Source: Aquibium microcysteis
GTDB taxonomy: Bacteria; Pseudomonadota; Alphaproteobacteria; Rhizobiales; Rhizobiaceae
NCBI RefSeq assembly: GCF_014495845.1
Contig: NZ_CP061080.1
Location: forward strand, 5,322,001 to 5,386,000
DNA: 64,000 nucleotides
Reading direction: 5' to 3'
In this document: one piece after another, positions 2,049 to 14,831 of the stretch
Layout of the letters: each line of letters begins with the position of its first letter
Position numbering within the stretch: position 1 is the first letter of the stretch
Position numbers and translations under genes: made by a program
Notes under the pieces: generated by a model
The model's database searches: none
The model's input: the letters and a program-made list of their open reading frames with translations, nothing else
Told to the model about the DNA's origin: nothing

Positions 2049-2978
2049 ATGACGGAGTCCGCGAAGGACGTTCTTCGACGAGTGCTCGGCGATCACGTCC
2101 CGGACGGCCGCTATGCCATCGTCGACTATCCCGGCTATGCCAATCCCGGCGACGCCGCGATCTGGTGCGGCGCGCGTACGCTGCTCGCGGAACTCACGGG
2201 TCGCCCGCCGTCCTACGTCTCCACCTTGCGCCATCTCGACGCCGCCCGCTGCCGCGAGGCCGTCGCGGGCGGCACGATCTTCTTCCTGGGCGGCGGCAAT
2301 TTCGGATCGCTCTATGCGCGCCACCACCGCCTGCGGCTGCGCGCTCTCGACGCACTGCGGGACGAAACGATCGTCCTCCTGCCGCTGAGCGTCGCCGATG
2401 CTGCCGACCCGGCGGCGGATCGAGACCTGTCGGCGCAGGCGGGGAGCGTATTGCGGCGCTGCGCGCGTCTGACGGTCCTCGCGCGGGAGCATCACAGCCG
2501 GACGGTGCTGGCGCAGGCGTACGGCATCGAGGCAGGCCTGTGCCCGGACACCGCCCATGGCCTGACGCCGCCCGCCGTCCAGCCGGTTCGGGAGACCATC
2601 GCGCTGAGGCGCCGCGACGGCGAGGCCCGCCGCGGCGCGTCCGACGGCCAGCCCGCCGGGGAACCATCGTTCGACTGGAGCGACGACGGGTCGCTGCGGT
2701 GGATCAACCGGATCGGCAAGGCTGCGCCCATCATTCCGTTTCACCGGCTGCGGCTCGCCGCTTTCGACGGCATCGCCCGCCGCAAGGTCGTCCTGGCCTG
2801 CGATCTGCTCGGACGCGGCAGGACCGTCGTGACCGATCGGCTGCACGGCGTCATTCTCGCCTCCACGATGGGCCGGACCGTCCTTGCCCGCGACAATGCC
2901 ACCGGCAAGGTCGGCTCCTATGTCGAGACGTGGGCGGAAATCCTGCCGCGGGTCTCGATCGGCGCCGATCGGGCCTGA
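2049..2978 (+). CDS. Polysaccharide pyruvyl transferase family protein
   Basis: The 309-residue protein carries the hallmarks of the pyruvyl transferase (ExoV/CsaB-like) family: NPGDAAI at residues 32-38, GGGNFG at 81-86, and a C-terminal TDRLHG at 262-267 followed by a hydrophobic helix. Family members add ketal-linked pyruvate from phosphoenolpyruvate to sugars of exopolysaccharides or wall polymers in the cytoplasm. Length is typical. The start ATG overlaps the stop of a tiny upstream frame (ATGAGCCGATGA, 2041-2052), so initiation may be coupled. It lies 85 bases after tRNA-Ala and converges on the GT25 gene. The sugar acceptor is unknown. Confidence 0.85.
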   Translation: MTESAKDVLRRVLGDHVPDGRYAIVDYPGYANPGDAAIWCGARTLLAELTGRPPSYVSTLRHLDAARCREAVAGGTIFFLGGGNFGSLYARHHRLRLRALDALRDETIVLLPLSVADAADPAADRDLSAQAGSVLRRCARLTVLAREHHSRTVLAQAYGIEAGLCPDTAHGLTPPAVQPVRETIALRRRDGEARRGASDGQPAGEPSFDWSDDGSLRWINRIGKAAPIIPFHRLRLAAFDGIARRKVVLACDLLGRGRTVVTDRLHGVILASTMGRTVLARDNATGKVGSYVETWAEILPRVSIGADRA

Positions 2979-2982
2979 CCGT

Positions 2983-3756
2983 TCATCGCTGCAGTCGGCT
3001 GCGCCGCGGGAAGTCGCCCGCATGCAGCCGTCGCATCCGTGCAATGGCGAACTGGTAGCGCAGGTTCGCCGCGAATCGGGCGACCGGACCCGTCCGGCTG
3101 TGCGTCTCGCGGTTGCTGTCCAGCGTGCTGGCGGAGAAAGGGTCGGTCCGCGGTTCGCAGGCGGAGGGAACGACGATGCGCGTGCACAGGCCGTGCACCC
3201 ACCAGCACTTGAGCGCCATGTCCACCGGCTGACCGAAGGGAACCATGGTCGCAGCGAGACGCGCTGCAGCCTGCCGGGTGACGGCGTAGGCGATTGTCGA
3301 CATCGGGTACTTGCGCGACAGCACCGTCCTGAACCGGCCGTGCAGCGTCCGGACGTCCTCGGACCGGACCGGCCTGGGACAGAACAGCCGCACCATGTCC
3401 CAGTCGCGCGGTCCCTCCTCGATCGCCACCAGGGCATCCGACGCACCCGCGGTGAACGACACGTCGTCCTCGAAGACGAAGGCCAGCTCGTCGGTCCCGT
3501 CTGCGATCAGGCGCCAGACCTTCAGGTGCGACAGGAAGCAGGCGACTTCTCCCGGACTGAGCACCCGCTTGAACGGCAGCGGCGGAGCCGGATCGACCGC
3601 CCGGCGGATCGTCTCGCCGTCGAGGTCGCGATAGTCGATCCCCGAGATCCGAGTGTGACGGATCCCCACCGCCCGAAGCTGCGCTGCGGTCGCCTCGCGC
3701 CGCTCGGGATGGCGATCGAGGTTGATGAAGTAGGCGGGGGCGGCCGGCGTCTTCAT
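2983..3756 (-). CDS. Glycosyltransferase family 25 protein
   Basis: The 257-residue protein starts with a GT25 signature, FINLDRHPERR (INLDR at residues 11-15). It has the EDD metal/nucleotide-sugar motif at 96-98 (FVFEDDVSF) and a downstream VDMALKCWW block. GT25 enzymes transfer sugars, often galactose, in lipopolysaccharide or lipooligosaccharide assembly at the inner membrane face. A longer frame runs upstream to 3885, but the ATG at 3756 has a strong GGGAGGT seven bases before it and begins right at the conserved domain. It is part of the surface-glycan/amide locus and converges tail to tail with the pyruvyl transferase gene. Confidence 0.85.
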   Translation of the reverse strand: MKTPAAPAYFINLDRHPERREATAAQLRAVGIRHTRISGIDYRDLDGETIRRAVDPAPPLPFKRVLSPGEVACFLSHLKVWRLIADGTDELAFVFEDDVSFTAGASDALVAIEEGPRDWDMVRLFCPRPVRSEDVRTLHGRFRTVLSRKYPMSTIAYAVTRQAAARLAATMVPFGQPVDMALKCWWVHGLCTRIVVPSACEPRTDPFSASTLDSNRETHSRTGPVARFAANLRYQFAIARMRRLHAGDFPRRSRLQR

Positions 3757-3894
3757 GGAAGCGACCTCCCGCATGCCGGACCGGGTCTCCCCGCCGTTTC
3801 GACAGGCGATCGCGGATCGGCGGCGGGCGTCGCCGCAACCGGCCGGGTGGAATGAACTCTCCCGCCCGGGCGGGACGCGCGCCACGTCGTCCGG

Positions 3895-5181
3895 TCAGAA
3901 GACATTGCGGCGCGGCTCCCGGTAGAGGTGCTTGCAGTGACCGCACGAAAACAGTCGCCGGCAATCCGACAGGCGGCAGGCGACCGGCTTCGACCGATCG
4001 AGCGCGACGCGCTCGAGATGGTCCGCGCCGGACGACTTGATCGAGAGCAGATCGCCCGGACGCAGGGTCTCGTCCAGGAAGGCCATCAGGACGTTGAAGT
4101 CATCGAAGGTGAACAGCCGGCCGGGATAGGTCGGCTTCAGGCGGCTCACGCGTTCGGCATGGGGACCGTAGAAGATCACGATCTCGGCCTCGGCCAGCGC
4201 CTCCTTCGCAGCCGTGACGTATTTCGTCCGGGCCGTGCCGCGATAGTCGGAGATCGTGCCGAAGAGCATGAGCTTCCGCTCCGCCTCGGCCGATGCGAGG
4301 ATTTCGATGCTCGACGCGATCGTCCAGTAGGGGGCCTTGAGCGCGTCGACGATGTAGGTCACCCCCGCATGAACCTCCACCTGATCCTTGAAGGGTTCAG
4401 GCTCCACCGCGCCGATCGCCGCGGCCGCCGCCTGCAGGTCGACGCCGAGCGCATGCGCCGCAGCCATCGCGGCCAGCACGCTCGTCTCCCAGCGCGCACC
4501 GACGAACCGCGTCGGAACCTGGATGTCCTCGCCGTCGACGCGCAGCTGCATGGCGAGGCGCCTCGGATAGCCGCTCGAACGCGACACGAGCCGGACGTCG
4601 GCCCCCTCCCGCCGCCCGTAGGTGATCACCCTGGCCCTCGTGCGCGCCGCCATGGCCGCGACCAGCGGATCGTCGGCGTTCAGGATCGCGATGCCGTCGG
4701 GCGGCAGGACCTCGACCAGTTGCACCTTGGCCTCGGCGATGGCCTCGATCGACTTGTGGTGGGCGATGTGGTCCATGCCGATCGTCGTGACGACACCGAG
4801 GGTCGGGCGCACGAAGGCGAGCGAGGAACGCATGGCCTCGTGCTCGTGGCCGCTGATCTCCTGCACCCAGTATCGCGCCCCGGAAGGGGCCTGGAGGAAG
4901 CGCCGGCGGATGCCGTCGGGGGTGTTGATGCCGACGCCGAGGTGAACGGTGTCGGCCTTTGCCAGCACCGAAGCGACCAGACGGCACGTCGTCGACTTGC
5001 CCGCGCTGCCGGTCACGCCGATCACCGCGTCGAACCGGGCTCTCCGCCGCAGCAGGTTTGCCAGCGGAAGCCGCCATTTCGTCCGCACGAAACGGATGGC
5101 GCGCCGAACCGCAGCATCGCGCGGGACGAGCGTTGCGAGGATGCCGTCGGTCCGGCCGCGATAGCGCTGCTGACGGGTCAC
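3895..5181 (-). CDS. Mur ligase family protein with a C-terminal cysteine cluster
   Basis: The 428-residue protein has the ATP-binding loop GVTGSAGKST at residues 55-64, the central-domain motif TIGMDHIAHHKS and NADD further on, as in MurF/MurC-type amide ligases that join an amino group to an acyl phosphate. The N-terminal UDP-sugar domain of true Mur enzymes is short or missing, so the substrate is probably not UDP-MurNAc. The GTG start at 5181 overlaps the stop of the AMP-ligase gene (GTGA), indicating translational coupling. The tail holds four cysteines at about 402, 407, 413 and 416 with CGHC at the end, a possible zinc site not usual for Mur ligases. The frame stays open upstream to 5727, but that is shadow coding of the neighbour. 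Confidence 0.83.
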   Translation of the reverse strand: MTRQQRYRGRTDGILATLVPRDAAVRRAIRFVRTKWRLPLANLLRRRARFDAVIGVTGSAGKSTTCRLVASVLAKADTVHLGVGINTPDGIRRRFLQAPSGARYWVQEISGHEHEAMRSSLAFVRPTLGVVTTIGMDHIAHHKSIEAIAEAKVQLVEVLPPDGIAILNADDPLVAAMAARTRARVITYGRREGADVRLVSRSSGYPRRLAMQLRVDGEDIQVPTRFVGARWETSVLAAMAAAHALGVDLQAAAAAIGAVEPEPFKDQVEVHAGVTYIVDALKAPYWTIASSIEILASAEAERKLMLFGTISDYRGTARTKYVTAAKEALAEAEIVIFYGPHAERVSRLKPTYPGRLFTFDDFNVLMAFLDETLRPGDLLSIKSSGADHLERVALDRSKPVACRLSDCRRLFSCGHCKHLYREPRRNVF

Positions 5182-6779
5182 CGGGACACCGCCGGAGCGG
5201 GGTCCGCCTCGCCGCCGTCCGGAGTGGCGGCAGGATCGCCGGCGAGGCCGAGCAGCTCGGCGAGCTTCAGGCGCTGGATCTTCCCGGTCGGACCCTTCGG
5301 GATGGCATCGAGGAAGACGACCGTACGCGGCACCTTGTGCGGCGCCAGCACCTCGCCGAGCGCCGACCGGACATCCTGCGCGTTCAGCGTCTCTCCCTCC
5401 GCCGGAACCACCGCCACGGCGACGTCCTCTCCCAGCGACCGGTGCGGCACCGCGAAGGCGATCGCCTCGGCGATGCGCCGGTCGCGCGCCAGCACGGCGT
5501 CGATTTCCAGCGGCGCGATCTTCTCGCCGCCGCGGTTTATGATCTCCTTGGTCCGGCCGGTGATGGTCAGGCACCCCGAGGCGTCGAGAAAGCCCTGGTC
5601 GCCCGTGTCGAACCAGCCGTTGCGGAACGACGCCTCGTTGGCGGCGGGTGCGTTCATGTAGGCGCGGTGCACGTTGTCGCCGCGGATGACGATCGCGCCC
5701 ACCGATCCGGCGGGAAGGTCCTCCCATGCCGCGTCGACGATCCGCACCCCAGTTCCCGTCATGTTTCCCACCGAGCCCGGCCTGCGATGGTCGAGGCCGT
5801 TGCTGGTGATCTGGTGCGCAGCCTCCGTCATCCCGTAGGCCTCGACCACCGGGCAGCCGAAGGTCTGCTCCAGCCCCTCCAGCGTGGCCGGCGCGAGTGC
5901 GGCCGAAGACGATCGCACGAAGCGCAGGCGCGTCGCCGAAGCGACCGCGGCGTTGCGTCGTGCGCGCTGCAGGATCGCCTGGTGCATGGACGGCACGGCG
6001 GAATACCAGGTCGGAGAGAAGTCGCCGAGCCAGCGGAAGAACTTCATGGCGTCGAATCCCTCGGTGCAGACGACTGCGCCACCGGCCCTGAGCGGCGCGC
6101 AGAGCGTGGCGACGAGCCCGTGGATGTGGAACAGCGGCAGGATCGACAGGCCGACGTCGTCTTCGCCGAGGCGCAGCGTCGCCACGATGTTGCGGATCGA
6201 CGCCTCGATGTTGGCACGGGTCAGCCCGACGAGCTTGGGCCGGGCCGTCGTCCCCGACGTATGCAGAAGGAGAACGACGTCATCCGTCCCGTTGCGGTCC
6301 GCGGTCGTGCCCGGCGTCGCCGGAGGCAGATCGACGGAGAGCGCGTCGCAGGCGCCGCCGTCGAACACGACTTCCGCGATCCCTATCCCGCGGGCCTGCG
6401 CCACGGATTTGGCAGCCTCGAAACCCTCACGCGGGCAGATGAGGAGCTTCGCGCCGAGATCGTCGAGAAAGAAGGCGAGTTCCGCTTCCCGATAGGCGGG
6501 GTTCAGCGGCGCCGCAGTCGCGATGGTGGCGACAGCCAGGAAGAGGATCGCCGTTTCGGGTCCGTTGGGCATGGACAGTGCCACGACGTCGCCGCGTTTC
6601 ACGCCGGCTGCGGCAAGGCGTGCCGCCGTGCCGGCGACCGCGGCTGCGAGATGCTGGTGCGAGCAGGCTTGACGGCCCGGCGAAAGCAGTGCCGTCTTGG
6701 AAGCGGTCGCGTCCGTGATCGCAGGCAGGAAAGGGCAGACGATGGCTTCGCTCATGTCTCGCATCATGTCCATGTCCAT
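5178..6779 (-). CDS. AMP-forming acyl-CoA synthetase / adenylate-forming ligase
   Basis: The 533-residue enzyme belongs to the ANL superfamily. The P-loop-like HTSGTTARPK is at residues 173-182, followed by YGMTEAA, GWFDTGD, GRTKEIINRGGEKIAP and the C-terminal PTGKIQR lysine motif, so both half-reactions look intact. Sequence style resembles oxalate-CoA-ligase-like/FadD-like enzymes. It would activate a carboxylic acid as acyl-AMP and then pass it to CoA or another thiol or amine. It is the first gene of a coupled pair with the Mur ligase. Several ATGs (6779, 6764, 6755) are in frame with no clear ribosome site, so the exact start is uncertain. Confidence 0.88.
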   Translation of the reverse strand: MDMDMMRDMSEAIVCPFLPAITDATASKTALLSPGRQACSHQHLAAAVAGTAARLAAAGVKRGDVVALSMPNGPETAILFLAVATIATAAPLNPAYREAELAFFLDDLGAKLLICPREGFEAAKSVAQARGIGIAEVVFDGGACDALSVDLPPATPGTTADRNGTDDVVLLLHTSGTTARPKLVGLTRANIEASIRNIVATLRLGEDDVGLSILPLFHIHGLVATLCAPLRAGGAVVCTEGFDAMKFFRWLGDFSPTWYSAVPSMHQAILQRARRNAAVASATRLRFVRSSSAALAPATLEGLEQTFGCPVVEAYGMTEAAHQITSNGLDHRRPGSVGNMTGTGVRIVDAAWEDLPAGSVGAIVIRGDNVHRAYMNAPAANEASFRNGWFDTGDQGFLDASGCLTITGRTKEIINRGGEKIAPLEIDAVLARDRRIAEAIAFAVPHRSLGEDVAVAVVPAEGETLNAQDVRSALGEVLAPHKVPRTVVFLDAIPKGPTGKIQRLKLAELLGLAGDPAATPDGGEADPAPAVSR

Positions 6780-6858
6780 TCGAGACAGACCGTTTCTTGC
6801 AACACCGATCCGAAACGACGAGTAGTTGAAACCAGAAGAAGCTGCCAGGCCAGTAACG

Positions 6859-7935
6859 ATGGCGGATCGCTATTTCTCCTACGAAGCCATGGAAGAAATC
6901 CAGTCCGGCGAACATGGATCGCAGGTGGTTTTCTACAAGAGAACGCGTCTGGAGGATGCAGGGATCCGCCGGTTTTCGGAACAGGACGTCCGGGAACTCC
7001 TCGGGCTCGGTGCCGCTGCAGCGGCCGCACTACTTCCGGCACGATCCTGGCCCTCGATCTGCCGCTTCTCATCGGGGCTCCGCTACGAGCGCAAGCGCAG
7101 GAAGCACTATGCCGACTACGCCCGTGCCATGGCCGCGGTCCTCAGAGTGGACGACGACGCGATCGTCGAGGCTTCCTTCCGATCGCACCTCGACGTGATG
7201 GCGCGACGCCGCTTCGGCTTGGCGCTCGATCATGTCGCGCCGCGGAGGAATTCGCCGATCGACGTGTCGGGCAGCGAGCAACTCCGCCAGGCGCTCGACC
7301 GAGGGAGGGGGGCGATCGTCTGGGCGTCTCAATTCGCGTTCCAGACGCTTGCCGGCAAGCGCGCGCTGTGGGAGCAGGGTTTCAAAGCGATCCAGATCAG
7401 CGATCCCTATCACGGCTTCACCAGCACCCGTGTCGGCAACCTCACCCACAATCCGGTGCTGAGGCGCGCCGAGGACCGCTATCTCAAGGGCCGGATCATC
7501 TTCGACCGCGAGAGCGGCGCGGCCGTCACGCGCAAGATCGTCGGGCTTCTCGACCAGGGCGAGCTGATCCTCCTGACCAACAACGTCCACGCCGGAGCGA
7601 TGTTCCTCGAGATGCCGATCGGCGCCCGCGGCCACGTCAGCATGCCGACTGCGCCGCTTTCGATCGTCGCGCGCCGCGCCACGCCGTTCTTCTCGATGGC
7701 CATCGTGGAGACCGAACCCTTCGGCCGGTTCGAAGCAGCCATCCGGCCGATCTCCGACGGCACGTCCGACGGCGCCCGAAGCAGCGCGGCGAAGCGGGAC
7801 TACGCCCGCATGGCCGCACTGGCGCTGACCGCCCGCGACCATCTCTTCGAGCACGTCCGCCGCGCGCCTGAACAATACCTGGTGATGGGCAATCTCGGCC
7901 GCAGCATGTTCGGGTCGCCGCGGGGCTCCACCTGA
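6859..7935 (+). CDS. Divergent LpxL/HtrB-like acyltransferase-fold protein with altered active site
   Basis: The 358-residue protein shows the general layout of the lipid A/lysophospholipid acyltransferase superfamily: GRGAIVW followed by ASQFAFQTLAG, then LLTNNVHAG and an EMPIG segment. The invariant HX4D/E catalytic motif should fall in SQFAFQ; His appears to be replaced by Gln and the acid by Thr. The protein may use different chemistry or have lost acyl transfer. The ATG at 6859 is preferred; a TTG at 6826 is also in frame. It is divergent from the AMP-ligase gene and ends just before a large palindrome. The assignment rests on fold-level resemblance. Confidence 0.65.
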   Translation: MADRYFSYEAMEEIQSGEHGSQVVFYKRTRLEDAGIRRFSEQDVRELLGLGAAAAAALLPARSWPSICRFSSGLRYERKRRKHYADYARAMAAVLRVDDDAIVEASFRSHLDVMARRRFGLALDHVAPRRNSPIDVSGSEQLRQALDRGRGAIVWASQFAFQTLAGKRALWEQGFKAIQISDPYHGFTSTRVGNLTHNPVLRRAEDRYLKGRIIFDRESGAAVTRKIVGLLDQGELILLTNNVHAGAMFLEMPIGARGHVSMPTAPLSIVARRATPFFSMAIVETEPFGRFEAAIRPISDGTSDGARSSAAKRDYARMAALALTARDHLFEHVRRAPEQYLVMGNLGRSMFGSPRGST

Positions 7936-7968
7936 TACTACTGGCCTTTACCTTCGACCCTCGCGCCG

Positions 7969-8131
7969 CCCCTCATCCGCCTGCCGGCACCTTCTCCCCG
8001 TAACACGGGGAGAAGAACGCCGTCACCGACGGCTTCGCGGGTCGCAAAGGTCGCCTACCTGGTGCCGATGTCGCGGCCGTGCCTCCTTCTCCCCGCTTGG
8101 GGGGAGAAGGTGCCGGCAGGCGGATGAGGGG
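7969..8131. repeat. REP/RIME-like intergenic palindrome with 31-bp perfect inverted arms
   Basis: Bases 7969-7999 and 8101-8131 are perfect inverted repeats of 31 bp, beginning CCCCTCATCCGCC. Each arm also forms its own hairpin: an 11-bp stem at 7991-8015 (CTTCTCCCCGT/ACGGGGAGAAG) and a 10-bp stem at 8085-8110. The motif family (CTCATCC...CTTCTCCCCG...CGGGGAGAAGG) is a very common intergenic repeat in Mesorhizobium and related genomes. It sits between convergent genes and could act as a bidirectional transcription barrier. In the rest of this gene-free stretch (7936-8268) I see nothing else. Confidence 0.85.
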
Positions 8132-8268
8132 CAGCGCCGTGGGTCAATCGAAAAGACCGCTGGTATGAAGCATTTCGCGCTCTTTCGGATTCGCTCCGCA
8201 GGCGTCAGATCCTGGTGTTCGCGCATGTCTTTCGCCCGAAACCGGTGCCCGCTGTCGGGAGACTTGCT

Positions 8269-9327
8269 TCAACCGCGGCGCCGGCGCCAGGGCAGGAGGT
8301 TCGCGCGGCAGCCGAAGACGGCGCGATGCCGGTCTGCCAGCCGGTTCTTCCAGGCGCTGCTGCCGATCATGAAGTCGATGCTGCCCAGCCTCCGTTCGAT
8401 CGCGAAGCGCACCACCTCGGCGAGCAGGACCCAGCCGGGGGAGAACCGCTCCCAGGCGGGGTTGTGTGCCATCTTCGACAGGTAGAGCGTCCCGTCGCGC
8501 TCGAAGGCGAGGATGCTCGCGATCCAGTCTTCCCCGGAAGCCAGTCGCAGGAGGTGGGTCCGGTTGCGTGCGTCCTCCCGGGCAGCGATGCGCTGGAACC
8601 AGGCTTCGGTCGCGGCCGGCACGATCCAGTCCGACAATCCCTCCTCCTCGACCCACTGCCGCTTGCGCGCGAACAGGCGCGCGATCTCGGCCGACCGCTC
8701 CTGCGGGTCGGTGACCGCATGGACCGGTCCGGCACCTGCCTTCCTCAGGCGGCGGCCGAAATTGCCGATCTGCTGGCGGCGCCTGGCGGGCATCGCGGCA
8801 AGATGGGCCTCGAAGGTCGGGTAGCCGGCGATGTCGAGGCTGGCCGCTTCCGCCTTGCGGACCAGGGGCATGCCGGCCGCGTCGAGGACGCGGTGGAGCG
8901 CCGTGCCCTCGTGGACGAAGCCGACCTTGAAGATCCGCGTCGCGAGCGACGCATGGAGGACATCGAGCAGCACCGCGGCCGCGGCGGCCGTCTCCATCGC
9001 GGGATCGAGAAGCAGCCCGTCATAGAAGGGCGTCCTGGAATCCAGCCAGAGCAGCGAATGCGTGCCGAACAGCTCGCGGCGCCTGATCATGGGCATTCCC
9101 ATGACAAGGCGCCCGCGGTCGCGGATGGCGGCGACGTGCAGGGCGGTGCGGCCATCCTTCCTGTACCTCTCCCAGTTCGCGCGCAGTATTTCCATCCGCG
9201 TGAAGAAGCCTTCCGACGCGCACCGGGCGTCGAGGGCCTCCCATTCGGCGGCGAGCCGGTCGAGCCCCCCTTCGTCGCTGACGATCTCCCACCCGATGCC
9301 CCCGGGAACGCGCATGCCGCTTTCCAT
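8269..9327 (-). CDS. GNAT/FemAB-like acyl or aminoacyl transferase (CelD/BcsL-type domain)
   Basis: The 352-residue protein resembles the acetyltransferase_6 (CelD/FemAB-like) family. It has an N-terminal half with VAAIRDRGRLVMGMP and an LWLDSRTPFYDGLL segment, and a C-terminal GNAT half with GEDWIASILAFERDGTLYLSKMAHN and FSPGWVLLAEVVRFAIE. Such proteins transfer acyl or aminoacyl groups to amines on surface polysaccharide precursors or related molecules. The start at 9327 lies one base after the stop of the ATP-grasp gene, so the two are an operon. An alternative ATG is at 9315. The frame stays open upstream, but that region is the coding sequence of the upstream gene read out of frame. Confidence 0.75.
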   Translation of the reverse strand: MESGMRVPGGIGWEIVSDEGGLDRLAAEWEALDARCASEGFFTRMEILRANWERYRKDGRTALHVAAIRDRGRLVMGMPMIRRRELFGTHSLLWLDSRTPFYDGLLLDPAMETAAAAAVLLDVLHASLATRIFKVGFVHEGTALHRVLDAAGMPLVRKAEAASLDIAGYPTFEAHLAAMPARRRQQIGNFGRRLRKAGAGPVHAVTDPQERSAEIARLFARKRQWVEEEGLSDWIVPAATEAWFQRIAAREDARNRTHLLRLASGEDWIASILAFERDGTLYLSKMAHNPAWERFSPGWVLLAEVVRFAIERRLGSIDFMIGSSAWKNRLADRHRAVFGCRANLLPWRRRRG

Positions 9328-9328
9328 G

Positions 9329-10561
9329 TCAGAAGAGTGCGCGAAGTCTCGCCAGGAACCCGTCCAGGCGAGCAGGCGTGCGGAAGAACTCGATCCCGCA
9401 GGCGGCCAGCGAGGCCTCGCGGCCGTGCAGCGTGCGCCTGTCGGCAGCCATGATCGCCACGCGCAGCCGTGCAGGCCCAGGGCCCAGTCCGCCATGCTCC
9501 GGATCGAACGTGGCGAGCGGCACCAGCCAGCCGTCGCGCAATCCCGGTTCGCACCGCTCCATCATGGTCGCGAGCGACGTGTTCGCCCTGCAGAAGGCAA
9601 GCCGGGCGATGCGCTCCGCGCCCGGGTGCTCCTTCCGGCGGAGCATCTCGTGGACGAAGGCCGTGCTGGACACCGGCCGGAAGTTGAGATCGATAGCGAA
9701 CGGCTTCCCGCCACGATCGACCAGAATGTCGAAGCCGCAGATGCCGCGGAATCCGAGCTGGCTTCCCTTCGCCGCGATCGCCCGCCCGAGCGCCGTCGCT
9801 GCGGGCGGAGGGGAGACGTCGCCGTCGAGGAGATTGCCGGCGTGGACGCCGTTGCGCAGGCAGATCTGCTCCGAGGCCCCGATGTCGAGCACGGTCCCGT
9901 CGGCCATCACCGCATATTGGAGGCACCAGTTCTGGGCAGCGTCGACGAGGCTTTCGGCGATGGCGGCCTCGGCGCCGGCGAAGCGCGACAGCCCGCGCCG
10001 CAGATGCCGCCGGCTCCGGCAGATGGCGACGTCCGTCCCGCCCGCACTCGGGCCGCCCGTCGCCACCTTCAGCACGATCGGGCGCCTGAGCCCCGCGCGC
10101 GCGACCGGATCGGTCAGATCGACGAGCCTGCGTGCAGGAACGTTTTCCGGACCGGCCAGCTGCGCGACGTTGCGCTTGTCGTTCAGGAACGCGAGCAGTT
10201 CGGGCGCCACGAGCGTCGGCCCCTCCTGGGTTGGTCCGCCTGCCGGACCATGCACGTAGGCGGCGGTCTCGCCGCGCCGCTGGCGCCGTCCGACGGCACG
10301 CCGGTAGTCGTCCGGCGAGCCGTAGACCTCGATGGCCGAGCCGACGCGCACGCCGCAGCGCTCCATGGCCGCAAGTCCGGTGGGCGACATGGCGGCTTTC
10401 TGGACCAGCATCGGCAGCCCGCCCGCGCAGGCGACGAGATTTGCCGTCATGAACTCCGTCATGTGCGGCTCGACCGGCGCCCATGCCGGGCCGTCGTCCT
10501 CGCGTCGGGGGGCGAGGAAGGTGCCGGGCGGGAAGAGCGCATCGAGCGTCGGCGGTGTCAT
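9329..10561 (-). CDS. ATP-grasp ligase-like protein
   Basis: The 410-residue protein shows an ATP-grasp arrangement: a central RPIVLKVATGGPSAGGTDV segment (nucleotide-clamping Lys and glycine loop), DGTVLDIGASEQI, and near the C-terminus GICGFDILVDRGG then FAIDLNFRP, which supplies the Asp/Asn metal ligands. ATP-grasp enzymes join a carboxylate to an amine or thiol through an acyl phosphate. The ATG at 10561 overlaps the stop of the PP-loop gene (ATGA) and the GNAT gene follows one base after its stop, so PP-loop, ATP-grasp and GNAT form one tightly coupled operon. Substrate unknown. Confidence 0.78.
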   Translation of the reverse strand: MTPPTLDALFPPGTFLAPRREDDGPAWAPVEPHMTEFMTANLVACAGGLPMLVQKAAMSPTGLAAMERCGVRVGSAIEVYGSPDDYRRAVGRRQRRGETAAYVHGPAGGPTQEGPTLVAPELLAFLNDKRNVAQLAGPENVPARRLVDLTDPVARAGLRRPIVLKVATGGPSAGGTDVAICRSRRHLRRGLSRFAGAEAAIAESLVDAAQNWCLQYAVMADGTVLDIGASEQICLRNGVHAGNLLDGDVSPPPAATALGRAIAAKGSQLGFRGICGFDILVDRGGKPFAIDLNFRPVSSTAFVHEMLRRKEHPGAERIARLAFCRANTSLATMMERCEPGLRDGWLVPLATFDPEHGGLGPGPARLRVAIMAADRRTLHGREASLAACGIEFFRTPARLDGFLARLRALF

Positions 10562-11730
10562 GGGGACGGGCGGCCCACCCGCGCCATGAATCGCCGCTGC
10601 CGCTTGAACCGCTTGAACCGGCGGGCGATTTCGGTCAGCGGGAGGATCCGGTTGAGCAGCTTTTCGCGACGGTACCGCTTCAGTGCCCCGTCGATGGCCG
10701 CGACGATGTCGTCGTCGCCATGAGTTTGCGCCGCTGCCCTCAAGTTGCGCATGTCGGACTGCGAGCCTTCGCCCGTCACCTTCAGCGACCGCTTCCTCGA
10801 CGTCAGGTGCCGGTAGGTCGGCGCCCTGTCGCGCATGTCGAGCACGTCGAGTGCGGCGAGCATGAACTGGCAGCTGTGGCAGACGCCGCAATGCTCGAAG
10901 CGGCGGTTGCAGACGCGCAGATGCTCCATCAGGACGGGCTCGCATGCGATCCGTTGCACCTTGGCGAGCCGGTGCACGAGGCCGTGATGCTCCACGCGCG
11001 CCCCGGCGGTGCCCCACAGGACGTCCAGTGCCGGATGAGAGCCCCAGCGCCGGGTCCAGGAGGACTCGTCGGCCGAGGAGGCGATGATCTGGTTCTCGAA
11101 CCGGTGCGCCAGCATGTGCCGCACCGCCGCCAGCACCGCACCGTGATACTCGACCCAGCCTATCAGCCGATCGGACACCGAGCGGATGTCGGTGGTGACG
11201 ACGATGCGACCCATACCGAATTGGTCTGCGACGTCCGTGACGACCGTCTTCAGTCGCGTGACGCGGGGCTGGTCCGCCGGGTCGACGTCTGCTCCGACAA
11301 GCGTCACCAGTGCCGAGATCCGCTCGCGCGCGGTGGCGAGCGAATAGCCCGAATCGACGCCGCCCGAGAAGAACAGCCCGGTTTCGCGACCGGCGGGATG
11401 GGATCGCCGGACCGGCCGGGCGTCCACCGCGATCCTGCCGTAGCCGGGATACCAGGTGCACAACAGCGACTGGATCTCGCTGGCGTGGTCGAGGAGTTCC
11501 TCGTCGACCTCGTCGTCGATGCGCAGGTCGACGCCGAGTTCCATCGCCGGAACGAGGCCGAGGCACAGGAGGGCGTCCCCCGACGCCGCGAGCCTCGCGC
11601 CGGCCGCCTCGAAGCGGATCGCCGCGTCGTATCCCCCGCATCTCAGCCGCACGGCGAGCGCCGAGCCATCGATCGCAGCTGCGGGAGAGGGCGCAGCATA
11701 GGCAAGGGTCAGGGTACGGGTGCTTCTCAT
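10558..11730 (-). CDS. PP-loop ATPase with QueC-like cysteine motif
   Basis: The 390-residue protein has a PP-loop SGGVDS at residues 122-127, as in adenylating N-type ATPases (QueC, GuaA, asparagine synthetase). A later cysteine group C274, C281, C284, C287 reads C-x6-C-G-x-C-x2-C, much like the zinc site of 7-cyano-7-deazaguanine synthase. The N-terminal 110 residues are unlike QueC. The family adenylates a carboxylate or carbonyl and lets ammonia or sulfur attack. It is the first gene of a three-gene operon. The start is uncertain: ATG 11730 is chosen, ATG 11796 is also in frame, and a GGAGG lies about 19 bases before 11730. True QueC function is unlikely because the rest of the sequence differs. 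Confidence 0.72.
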   Translation of the reverse strand: MRSTRTLTLAYAAPSPAAAIDGSALAVRLRCGGYDAAIRFEAAGARLAASGDALLCLGLVPAMELGVDLRIDDEVDEELLDHASEIQSLLCTWYPGYGRIAVDARPVRRSHPAGRETGLFFSGGVDSGYSLATARERISALVTLVGADVDPADQPRVTRLKTVVTDVADQFGMGRIVVTTDIRSVSDRLIGWVEYHGAVLAAVRHMLAHRFENQIIASSADESSWTRRWGSHPALDVLWGTAGARVEHHGLVHRLAKVQRIACEPVLMEHLRVCNRRFEHCGVCHSCQFMLAALDVLDMRDRAPTYRHLTSRKRSLKVTGEGSQSDMRNLRAAAQTHGDDDIVAAIDGALKRYRREKLLNRILPLTEIARRFKRFKRQRRFMARVGRPSP

Positions 11731-11869
11731 GCGGCGGCCGGATGACGATCCTCCAGGTGCGATGACCCTGATACTATGTCGGGGCAGTTCCACCAATCAC
11801 CATTCCGGGAAGGGTTCGCGGCGCCCGGCGATGATTGCGGGGTTTCAGCCGTTGTGATCAGATGCCGCC

Positions 11870-12928
11870 ATGGGGATAGCGGGGCGACTTCGTTCGTTGT
11901 CGGATCTGGTGGCGGAGGAGTTCCGGCGGACGGTCCCCGGTCCCCTCTGGCGCCTGCGCGCGCTGGCGAGCGGTCACCCATCGCGATCGATCGCGCTGCT
12001 CCCGCCCGAGGTTCGCGCGTCGGGAGCCTATCTGCGCCAGACGCGCTTCTATCGCCGGCGCGCCTACTACAACCGCATGCTCTACGCCGCGCTCCACAAC
12101 AAGATCTCGCAGAAGCTCTGGCTGGACAGGGTCTGTCCCGAGGCTGCCCCGCCGATGACCCACTACGTCGCCGGCGAGCGGCTGGTGCAGATCGGCGGCC
12201 CGGATCGGCCCCAGCGGACGCGTGCAGAAATCCCGTCCCTGCTGCAGCCGGGCCGGCCGCTCTTCGTCAAGCCAGCCGATGCCGGACAGGGAGTGGGCGC
12301 CTTCCATCTCGCCCAGGATGGCGACGGCGTGATGATCAACGGGGTGCGGGTCGATCACGAAGGCTTCCGGGCCTGGCTGGCGGAACAGCCGATCGCGTTC
12401 ACGGTGTCGGGCGTGATCGAGCAGTCGGCCTGGACGCGCCGGATCTTTCCGGGTGCCGTCAGCACCGTTCGCATCATGACCGCGACCTCCTTCGTCGACC
12501 GCAGGGCGGTCGTCCTCGGCGCGGTCCTGAAATGCGCCACCAGCCGGACGGCGCCGACCGACAATTTTCAGAGCGGTCGCGGCGGAACGACATCGTCGAT
12601 CGATCTCACCACGGGGACGGTCGGCCCCTGCGTCGGCTTCGACGAGGACCGGTTCGAACGCACGCTCAGCGACCGCCACCCGGAGAGCGGAGCACCGGTG
12701 GCGGGCGAGACGCTGCCTCACTGGGGCCTGCTGCGCGATACGGTCGCCGGTCTCGCCGCGATCCTCCCGTGCGCAGGCATCGCCGGATGGGACGTCGCGA
12801 TCCGCGACGATGGGATCACCGTGGTCGAGATCAATACGCTTCCCGGTATCGACGTTCTCCAGAGCGCGGTGCCGCTGCTGGACACGGAAGCCAAGCGCGC
12901 AATCCTGACGGAAATGCGGATGTTTTGA
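11870..12928 (+). CDS. Sugar-transfer-associated ATP-grasp protein
   Basis: The 352-residue protein matches the sugar-transfer-associated ATP-grasp type. It has FVKPADAGQGVGAF (ATP-clamping lysine and glycine loop), VIEQSAW, the STVRIMTAT strand, KCATSRT, and the C-terminal GWDVAIRDDG...VVEINTLPG with metal-binding Glu/Asn. Members occur in capsule and teichuronopeptide-like loci, where they are predicted to attach amino acids or peptides to sugars. It is divergent from the PP-loop operon across a 139-base region and precedes the asparagine synthetase gene by 25 bases, so the two are probably one operon. Confidence 0.85.
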   Translation: MGIAGRLRSLSDLVAEEFRRTVPGPLWRLRALASGHPSRSIALLPPEVRASGAYLRQTRFYRRRAYYNRMLYAALHNKISQKLWLDRVCPEAAPPMTHYVAGERLVQIGGPDRPQRTRAEIPSLLQPGRPLFVKPADAGQGVGAFHLAQDGDGVMINGVRVDHEGFRAWLAEQPIAFTVSGVIEQSAWTRRIFPGAVSTVRIMTATSFVDRRAVVLGAVLKCATSRTAPTDNFQSGRGGTTSSIDLTTGTVGPCVGFDEDRFERTLSDRHPESGAPVAGETLPHWGLLRDTVAGLAAILPCAGIAGWDVAIRDDGITVVEINTLPGIDVLQSAVPLLDTEAKRAILTEMRMF

Positions 12929-12953
12929 CGATTGGACACGGGGGAGAGCATCG

Positions 12954-14831
12954 ATGTGCGGGATTGCCGGCGTCTGGCGCTTTGCCGAGCGAACGCAGGA
13001 TGTCGACGACGACGACGTTCGGACCATGATCGCGGCGATCCGGCACCGCGGCCCGGATGGCGAGGGCTACTGGTCGGGCGACAGCCTTATGCTCGGGCAC
13101 TGCCGTCTCGCGATCATCGACACCTCCGACCGCGGTCTCCAGCCGGCCGTCACCGCCGACGGCTCCGGCGTGCTCGCCTACAATGGCGAGGTCTACAACT
13201 TCCGGGAACTTCGCCGGGAACTCGAGGACGCCGGCGGCCGCTTCCTCAGCGGGACCGATACGGAGGTGGTGCTGCGGGCGCTGCACGAATGGGGCGTGGA
13301 AACGGCCGTCCGGCGGTTCACCGGCATGTTCGCCTTCGCCTATTTCGACCGCCGCGAACGGGTGCTCTGGCTGTGCAGGGACCGGCTGGGAATCAAGGGC
13401 CTCTCCGTCGTCCGCAGGGGCGACCGGTTGCTGTTTGCCTCGGAAGACAAGGCGCTGCTGCGCGCATCCGGAGTGGGCACGCGGATCGACACGCGGACGG
13501 TCACGCTGTCGCTTGCGCTCCAGGACGTCGACGCGCACCTCTCGTCCTTCGCCGACGTCCGCCGGCTGCCGCCGGGCGCCTGCTGGCGCGTCGACGGCGA
13601 GGGTATTCGCGAGGGCAGCTTCTGGAATGCCCTCGCCGCCATCGAGACGGAACGCCTCGGCGACCGGCATCGGCCCGTCGCAGAGGCGAAGGTGGAACTG
13701 GAGAACCTCCTGCGCGCCAGCGTCGGGCTTCACTGCGTCTCCGACGTCAGGCTCGCCACCGCCTGCTCCAGCGGGGTCGATTCGGGGCTCGTCACGGCAC
13801 TGAGCCGGGAATTCGTCGATCCCTTCCACGCCTATGTCGTGGCGCCCGACACGGGCGTGAGCGAAGCGCAGGGCGCGCAGCGGACGTGCGACCGCCTCCG
13901 AGTTCCCCTGCAGCGGGTCGGTTTCGACCGCGAGACCTACCTGCGCAATCTCGCGACGGCCATCTACCACGTCGAGAACGGGAACCTCAGCAACTCCACC
14001 GCGGCGTTGCTGGCCATGACGCGGCAATGCAGGCAGGACGGCGTCAAGGTGCTGCTGACGGGCGAGGGATCCGACGAACTCTTCGGCGGATACGGCTGGC
14101 ATGCCGTCTCCGCCGGCCGTGCCCGGTGGGCGAACGTCCTCGCCGCCTTCGGTCCGACGCGCCGCGCCCGCGAACGCCGCAGGAGGCGGATCGCCACGAT
14201 GCCGTTCGCCAACGCCTTCGCCGGTTCCGGCACGGTCGAGCATCGGATCCTGTCGGCCTCGCTCTTCGCGCAGCACATCCTGGCGCCCGAGGCGATCCTC
14301 GAGGCGCTCTCGACGGTGTCTCCGGTCTATGCGCAGGTGTTCGCCGGCAACGGGATCTTCGACCTCTATGGGCACATGGGGTGCATCATCCACCGCCATG
14401 ACCGGATCTCCATGGCCTCCTCCGTCGAACTGCGGGTGCCGTTCCTGGAGAACGCCGTCATCGACTTCGCCCTCAACCTCCATCCGGACTTCAAGCGCAG
14501 GCAGGGTCGGGGCAAATGGCTGCTGAAGGAGGTGGCCTCGAAATACCTTCCGCGCGAGAACATCCTGGCGCGGAAAAAGGGCTTCCCGGTGTCGAGCGAC
14601 TATTTCGCGGGAACCGAATCGACGTTGAGGAGCGGCGCATTGCGGGATCTGATGGCCTGGAGCCGGGCCGAGACGGAGCGGATCGTCGGCCTTTGCGCGG
14701 CGGACGGGGCAATGCGCACGCGCCTGGTCGGCCACGAGATCTTCGGCCGCATCTATGGCTGGGGCGTGTCTCCCGAGCAGACCGGGGAGGCGCTGGTTGC
14801 TGCCGCGGCGGAGCGCGGCGCGGTCGGCTGA
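12954..14831 (+). CDS. asnB: Asparagine synthetase (glutamine-hydrolysing) family amidotransferase
   Basis: The 625-residue protein begins MCGIAG, so Cys2 is the glutaminase nucleophile after Met removal. It continues with the class II amidotransferase domain (RHRGPDGEG, YNGEVYN, SGTDTEVVL). The synthetase half carries the PP-loop SSGVDSG at about residue 270 and GEGSDELFGGY at about 370. It uses glutamine-derived ammonia and ATP to amidate a carboxylate. Length is normal for AsnB, but homologues in polysaccharide loci often amidate sugars or other substrates, and that fits this neighbourhood. It follows the ATP-grasp gene by 25 bases and converges on the LysR gene. Confidence 0.9.
   Translation: MCGIAGVWRFAERTQDVDDDDVRTMIAAIRHRGPDGEGYWSGDSLMLGHCRLAIIDTSDRGLQPAVTADGSGVLAYNGEVYNFRELRRELEDAGGRFLSGTDTEVVLRALHEWGVETAVRRFTGMFAFAYFDRRERVLWLCRDRLGIKGLSVVRRGDRLLFASEDKALLRASGVGTRIDTRTVTLSLALQDVDAHLSSFADVRRLPPGACWRVDGEGIREGSFWNALAAIETERLGDRHRPVAEAKVELENLLRASVGLHCVSDVRLATACSSGVDSGLVTALSREFVDPFHAYVVAPDTGVSEAQGAQRTCDRLRVPLQRVGFDRETYLRNLATAIYHVENGNLSNSTAALLAMTRQCRQDGVKVLLTGEGSDELFGGYGWHAVSAGRARWANVLAAFGPTRRARERRRRRIATMPFANAFAGSGTVEHRILSASLFAQHILAPEAILEALSTVSPVYAQVFAGNGIFDLYGHMGCIIHRHDRISMASSVELRVPFLENAVIDFALNLHPDFKRRQGRGKWLLKEVASKYLPRENILARKKGFPVSSDYFAGTESTLRSGALRDLMAWSRAETERIVGLCAADGAMRTRLVGHEIFGRIYGWGVSPEQTGEALVAAAAERGAVG

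Follow-up and report, generated by a model that had tools for sequence, protein, structure and literature searches.

We analysed a window of 64,000 nucleotides from the alphaproteobacterium Aquibium microcysteis (contig NZ_CP061080.1; C1:5322001-5386000), whose genome of 6.1 Mb is a single contig. Positions 2049-14831 of this window are occupied by ten genes, here called g1 to g10, of which g8, the gene for a PP-loop protein, and g1, the gene for a pyruvyl transferase, are the main subjects of this report. The initial annotation had proposed these ten genes, and all of them proved to be real and to lie at the positions it gave.

Families were assigned with Pfam and NCBIfam models. On the plus strand, g1 (2049..2978) encodes a ketal pyruvyl transferase (PF04230; 61.6 bits against the Pfam cut-off of 25.3) and stands alone, as does g5 (6859..7935), which encodes a protein of the PatA/LpxM fold without the HX4D/E dyad. 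A plus-strand pair is formed by g9 (11870..12928; the start may be 11897 instead), for a sugar-transfer-associated ATP-grasp enzyme (PF14397; 86.1 bits against 31.4), and g10 (12954..14831), for a glutamine-dependent asparagine-synthetase-like amidotransferase. The minus strand carries g2 (2983..3756; an alternative in-frame start is possible at 3774), for a glycosyltransferase of family 25 (GT25; PF01755, 73.1 bits against 24), and two tightly packed runs, g8-g7-g6 and g4-g3. The latter comprises g4 (5178..6779), for an adenylate-forming enzyme of the acyl/aryl-CoA ligase type (PF00501, 236.5 bits, together with PF13193), and g3 (3895..5181), for a Mur-type ligase without the N-terminal domain (PF08245, 114.8 bits), whose GTG start overlaps the g4 stop by 4 bases. 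In the former, g8 (10558..11730), for a PP-loop ligase of the predicted QueC/QatC fold with a four-cysteine site, overlaps by 4 bases with g7 (9329..10561), for an ATP-grasp amino-acid-ligase-like enzyme (NCBIfam LdmS, E = 1e-40; 7r8p, E = 5.8e-24), and a 1-base gap separates g7 from g6 (8269..9327), for an Acetyltransf_6/FemAB-like transferase (PF13480, 81.1 bits against 22).

The protein encoded by g8 had no family match and scored under the cut-off of every curated family tried; its score with PF06508, the QueC model, was 10.4 bits against a cut-off of 22, and the same model matched 12 of the 26 aligned g8 members at E values up to 1 (best, 0.0047). Its predicted model (predicted local distance difference test score, 92.6) was matched by VIA-align to QatC, QueC and Cap9. 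The best match was QatC, over 288 residues that include the N-terminal region, so that the predicted fold contains an N-terminal extension as in QatC, and Cap9 was close; with plain Foldseek the single match at E <=0.001 was QueC, and the g8 profile found nothing useful among PDB sequences. The ATP loop S[GA]GxDS (SGGxDS in QueC) and four cysteines are present in all 26 members, the cysteines of the window protein being arranged as C(x)6CxxCxxC, compared with C(x)8CxxCxxC in the QueC zinc motif. The QueC motifs YPDC, VPxRN and YxQxHxxE, as given in the available text of PMC13329287, were each found in none of the 26. According to the available text of PMC13279940, QatC has also lost the residues that recognise 7-carboxy-7-deazaguanine (CDG). 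No qatA, qatB or qatD was named among the ten genes by Pfam or NCBIfam, qatB having no Pfam model. The only PF06508 match in the host genome is partial (22.6 bits against 22, positions 2-61 of 210), so a canonical QueC in this genome is doubtful, and with the motifs absent from all members we consider deazaguanine chemistry unlikely for g8. A defence-system role was also considered and set aside, PADLOC having given no match for the window protein; three PADLOC models each matched one of the 26 members, weakly. In 15 plasmid records from alphaproteobacteria, cyanobacteria, Bacillota and haloarchaea, proteins of the g8 family are labelled as hypothetical proteins.

The solved relative of g1 is the yeast pyruvyl transferase Pvg1p (5ax7, E = 5.5e-13), to which g1 is identical at 11 of the 12 positions checked, these being positions discussed in the available text of PMC10435577. 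The residues reported there to bind phosphoenolpyruvate (PEP) in Pvg1p, R217, R337, H339 and K361, correspond to R146, R264, H266 and K287 of g1, with an inferred numbering offset of 53. Residues N32, D35, R146, R264, L265, H266 and K287 of g1 are invariant in 16 aligned sequences, which covers the four PEP-binding positions and those of Pvg1p N103 and D106. As judged from the sequence, g1 keeps the PEP- and acceptor-binding residues of Pvg1p, and pyruvate transfer by g1 is predicted. The motif columns of g4 and g10 are likewise invariant in their alignments, as is E96-D97-D98 of g2 in 14 sequences, and the C-terminal cysteines C402, C407, C413 and C416 of g3 are kept in at least 90% of 21 sequences. 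The nearest NCBIfam model of g4, a FadD7-type ligase, gave a score below the cut-off of that model, and the LdmS dipeptide ligase score of g7 (139.7 bits) was under the curated cut-off of 475. The score of g10 with the asparagine synthase model TIGR01536 (382.1 bits) was above the curated cut-off of 267.1. A PDB sequence search found nothing for g6, nor anything useful for the g5 profile. The g5 protein had no family match in Pfam or NCBIfam, and its predicted model (score, 81.3) matches the PatA and LpxM folds. The catalytic dyad of LpxL/LpxM/PatA acyltransferases is the motif HX4D/E, which occurred in no g5 alignment column in more than one of ten sequences; a role as lipid A acyltransferase, with which the fold agrees, was accordingly rejected for g5.

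A profile search of genome contigs with the g8 alignment gave 59 loci, and the presence of genes was decided by six-frame searches. A check set beforehand, namely whether the same families occur elsewhere in the same order, had a positive outcome: all ten genes are present in unchanged order in a second Aquibium (L010), and nine of them in an Ahrensia metagenome-assembled genome (L011) and in Hoeflea (L015). In L011, g2 is reduced to a C-terminal remnant of 61 residues (195-255 of 257) at L011:17510-17692, between g3 and g1, which suggests that g2 was lost recently in this lineage; L015 lacks g4 and has a formyltransferase gene inserted between g3 and g2. Seven genes are present in L012, where g7, g9 and g10 are absent from the examined flank and RgpF-type and methyltransferase genes stand at that end, and also in L018 and L020, where g1, g2, g3, g5, g6, g7 and g8 are rearranged yet together, while L013 and L014 have six. 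Subsets, some rearranged, occur in Mesorhizobium and other Rhizobiaceae, and in Flavimaribacter (G023) the set is split, with g5-g8 close to g3-g4 and g9-g10 on a separate contig.

Among 61 whole genomes, that of A. microcysteis included, g8 was found in six, g9 in five (three of them strong), g5 in four and g7 in three, and g5 and g7 only ever occurred beside g8; g6-like proteins were found in 39, and the four strong matches were all inside the cluster, beside g8. A g8 match at 1e-10 was obtained in 4 of 289 genomes of the class, again with the genome of the window counted. These distributions indicate that the cluster is rare and occurs in modules. A gene for an XendoU-domain protein adjoins the Hoeflea cluster (L015:14539-15831) and one for an RHS-repeat protein the Ahrensia cluster (L011:3556-4701); both families are common in contact-toxin systems.

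The strongest signal, which the initial annotation had missed, is the pairing of the PP-loop protein with a pyruvyl transferase. PF04230-like open reading frames were found in 27 of the 59 g8 loci (24 above 100 bits and three under 50 bits) with a profile partly seeded from the same loci, and those of L024, L033, L051 and L058 were checked with Pfam. Together the 59 loci span 1.02 Mb, or roughly one quarter of a genome; as a background, 36 PF04230 Pfam matches were counted in 100 whole genomes of the phylum, an approximate control that used the Pfam model and one phylum, the loci spanning other phyla too. In the plasmid set, which consists of 15 of the 21 records with a g8 match and covers 4-20 kb of flanking DNA with a gene table that is not complete, a pyruvyl transferase gene directly adjoins g8 in nine of the 15 records; five of these nine are Azospirillum plasmids, in which the two genes form a bare pair. 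The host genome has three PF04230 genes, two of which are at most 12 kb from the two g8 genes that it carries.

The second g8 gene of the host belongs to another kind of locus, type II, which in L024, L025 and L029 comprises a formyltransferase gene, g8, two Mur ligase genes, a GT25 gene and a gene for a shorter PF04230 protein; L024 additionally carries g5 and g4. In the host (C1:2.50 Mb), formyltransferase-g8 and GT25-PF04230 stand at the two sides of this locus, and its interior holds UDP-sugar dehydrogenase, 2-epimerase, heparinase II/III and group-1 glycosyltransferase genes. A rough tree without support values places the g8 proteins of types I and II as sisters and their PF04230 partners far apart. 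Loci with a PF04230 domain of <=50 bits were left out of this comparison, in which shared species history is a confounder (Mantel 0.42, 0 of 2000 permutations). The partners carry RLH in ten of ten sequences of one type and SLH in ten of ten of the other. That the PF04230 partner was swapped while the association was retained suggests that g8 and the PF04230 enzyme are functionally linked.

Other neighbourhoods of g8 were also observed. At L021:7982-9896 and L022:7868-9840, a cytochrome P450 gene and a gene for a protein of about 240 aa without a Pfam match precede the g8 homologue. On a Nitrospirales contig (L067:4086-11770), four g8-family genes of full length are clustered with one fragment and adjoin an ATPgrasp_ST-like gene and a Mur fragment. 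On a Verrucomicrobia contig (L035:109-5052), g8 is followed by three matches to the g3 Mur profile, one of them weak, and at the haloarchaeal plasmid loci L086, L088 and L097, ATP-grasp, GNAT or carboxylate-amine ligase genes lie close to g8.

Several loci place the pair or larger parts of the cluster among glycan genes. On the Gemmobacter aquarius plasmid NZ_CP028919.1, homologues of g5, g6, g7, g8 and g1 stand at the end of a polysaccharide locus, probably of the Wzy type, with a sugar transferase gene, two O-antigen ligase-family genes, a tyrosine autokinase gene and GDP-mannose/fucose genes; some 80 kb from it, the plasmid also carries a type II cluster, beside more glycosyltransferase genes. 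Glycosyltransferase, pyruvyl transferase and g8 genes are consecutive on two Gloeothece plasmids and one Priestia plasmid, g8 of A. carbonis is bordered by an RgpF-type gene and two methyltransferase genes, and in Flavimaribacter two glycosyltransferase genes lie beside g9-g10. The host genome has a third ligase locus (L078:7534-11023, G000:C1:5413533-5417022), in which a GT2 gene is directly followed by genes for a Mur-type ligase and an ATPgrasp_ST protein.

Taken together, decoration of a surface glycan is the interpretation that fits best, and we think it probable that the ten genes form a pathway by which a glycan at the cell surface or outside the cell is decorated, the synthesis of its backbone being encoded in other parts of the genome. 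This reading builds on the enzyme families, the conserved residues and motifs in g1, g4, g8 and g10, the gene order and the association of g8 with pyruvyl transferase and glycan genes, as they appear in sequences and predicted models. From these we infer all substrates and the order of the steps, which might be as follows. The GT25 enzyme g2 would add a side sugar, perhaps galactose, onto which g1 would move pyruvate from PEP as a ketal, creating a new carboxylate. A carboxylate, most simply that of the ketal, would be adenylated by g8 and coupled to ammonia or an amine; the resulting ketal-amide linkage is our proposal. Amino acids would be attached as amides by g3, the ligase of the Mur type, and by the two ATP-grasp enzymes, g7 and g9, with g10 making or delivering the amide nitrogen, while g6, g4 and perhaps g5 would supply and transfer one further acyl or aminoacyl group. 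The finished unit would be exported by the existing polysaccharide or lipopolysaccharide (LPS) route of the host.

The initial annotation had favoured a surface sugar decorated with amidated amino acids or an acyl group. This was right in direction yet unspecific and is partly supported: the amidated sugar holds in outline, given the Gemmobacter polysaccharide locus, the A. carbonis glycan genes that border g8 and an active site in g1 that is conserved. The case for the acyl part is weak, since g5 no longer has the dyad that is catalytic in its fold family. The statement of the initial annotation that known capsule clusters do not fit is correct within the window, but part of the module sits in such a locus in Gemmobacter.

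Several observations weigh against a glycan pathway centred on the g8-pyruvyl transferase pair. PF04230 was lacking in the DNA examined at 32 of the 59 g8 loci (several being short contigs); L016, L019 and L023, where g8-g7-g6 are present, are among these 32. In five of five haloarchaeal records no PF04230 gene was annotated within about 4 kb of g8; instead, a gene for an ATP-grasp enzyme, a GNAT or a carboxylate-amine ligase is close by in three of them. Pfam found no polymerase, flippase or initiating transferase among the ten genes, the window has no polymer machinery, and the Bac_transf (C1:0.11, 5.92 Mb) and Wzy_C (C1:0.11, 2.45, 2.82 Mb) genes of the host lie at distances above 0.5 Mb. 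The literature matches listed yielded no amide of a pyruvate ketal. The lack of polymer genes in the window would also suit a diffusible small molecule, for example a glycosylated, amidated peptide-like metabolite that free-standing ligases assemble and a general transporter carries out of the cell. This would agree with the P450 partners at two Hoeflea-group loci (L021, L022), with an MFS transporter gene adjoining the cluster in L018 and L020, with nonribosomal peptide synthetase genes close to the g8-pyruvyl transferase pair on the two Gloeothece plasmids, and with versions of three to four genes in L027 and L028 (Rhodobacteraceae by name) and L060 (Nitratireductor), beside which no glycan operon was noticed, most neighbours being read by eye. 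We nevertheless regard it as rather unlikely, for a polysaccharide-type pyruvyl transferase and a GT25 enzyme are central to the cluster, part of the module ends the Gemmobacter polysaccharide locus, and a dedicated exporter is absent among the ten genes.

Improbable, too, is decoration of the LPS core or lipid A, in which the GT25 enzyme and the LpxM-like protein would act on lipid A-core and the ligases would amidate its uronic acids. No polymerase would be necessary, Pfam names GT25 for LPS biosynthesis and g5 has the LpxM fold, but g5 lacks the dyad, the Gemmobacter copy is within a polymer locus, and Priestia, which is Gram-positive and has no LPS, has g8 paired with a pyruvyl transferase gene in the vicinity of GalU and glycosyltransferase genes. 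The match of g8 to QatC and Cap9 raises the idea that it conjugates a nucleobase-like group to a protein or glycan partner, possibly in defence; we give this a very low probability in view of the missing QueC motifs (an argument tempered by the loss of CDG residues in QatC as well), the partial PF06508 match of the host and the weak, single PADLOC matches. Equally remote is a pathway for an N-acetylglutaminylglutamine-like osmolyte made by g6, g9 and g10, with the other genes as unrelated neighbours: the amidotransferase model TIGR03104 is the second-best NCBIfam match of g10, but its score of 295.4 is far from the cut-off of 570.1, no acetylglutaminylglutamine-synthetase model is listed by NCBIfam for g6, g7 or g9, and in L010, L011 and L015 g10 keeps its place in the order of the cluster.

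Glycan decoration, our preferred reading, possibly involves one new enzyme step. We tentatively suggest, as a possibility short of an even chance, that a two-enzyme glycan modification exists in several phyla, in which a PF04230 enzyme forms the ketal and a PP-loop ligase of the QueC fold amidates the ketal carboxylate, and that in the Aquibium-type cluster Mur, ATP-grasp, GNAT and AsnB enzymes build on it to give a side group that resembles a short peptide. Pyruvate ketals confer negative charge on surface glycans and serve as recognition groups; if the suggestion is true, an enzyme that masks this carboxylate or extends it would constitute a new point of control. The g8 PP-loop family would then have its first function hypothesis, and the QueC fold would gain a role in glycans. 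Literature searches gave nothing relevant on QueC together with pyruvyl transferase among the matches listed, and none was found that combines Mur, ATP-grasp, pyruvyl transferase and exopolysaccharide, or on ATPgrasp_ST.

Two further features flank or interrupt the genes. A tRNA-Ala gene (1888-1963) abuts the cluster before g1, and LysR-like and ABC-transporter-like genes, named by eye, follow g10. With the tRNA gene in view, a mobile island was considered as well; the G+C content is even. The interval between g5 and g6 holds an inverted repeat of 37 nt (7963..8137, assigned to neither strand; arms 7963-7999 and 8101-8137, 97% complementary), whose tested core sequence occurs once per strand across the window and which is probably a palindromic element outside the pathway.

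Among known systems, the predicted ATP-grasp/Mur/GNAT amidoligase operons, reportedly described by Iyer and Aravind, resemble the cluster in having free-standing peptide ligases in one operon. Mur, GNAT-fold and ATP-grasp ligases occur in the predicted peptide-synthesis operons of PMC2922099, the available text of which does not mention the QueC-like and pyruvyl-transferase core seen here. The LpxL/LpxM/PatA acyltransferases share their fold with g5, which is missing their HX4D/E dyad. From the QueC/QatC/Cap9 family g8 differs by its score below the PF06508 cut-off, its lack of QueC motifs and its glycan neighbours at many loci. The WbpG-type N-sugar amidotransferases are, like g8 as we read it, PP-loop enzymes of surface-glycan synthesis, but they have CxxC(x)6CxC and a YDC triad (available text of PMC13329287), where g8 has C(x)6CxxCxxC and no Y.DC. 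Unlike the polysaccharide loci with ketal pyruvylation (succinoglycan ExoV, xanthan, CsaB, Pvg1p), the window has no polymerase or flippase and the cluster has at least five amide-forming ligases; the available text of the pyruvylation review PMC6801904 mentions no amide of the ketal and no amidation. With these loci the cluster shares a PF04230 enzyme that has the PEP-binding residues of Pvg1p and an adjoining glycosyltransferase, and in Gemmobacter five homologues of the Aquibium cluster form the end of one such locus.

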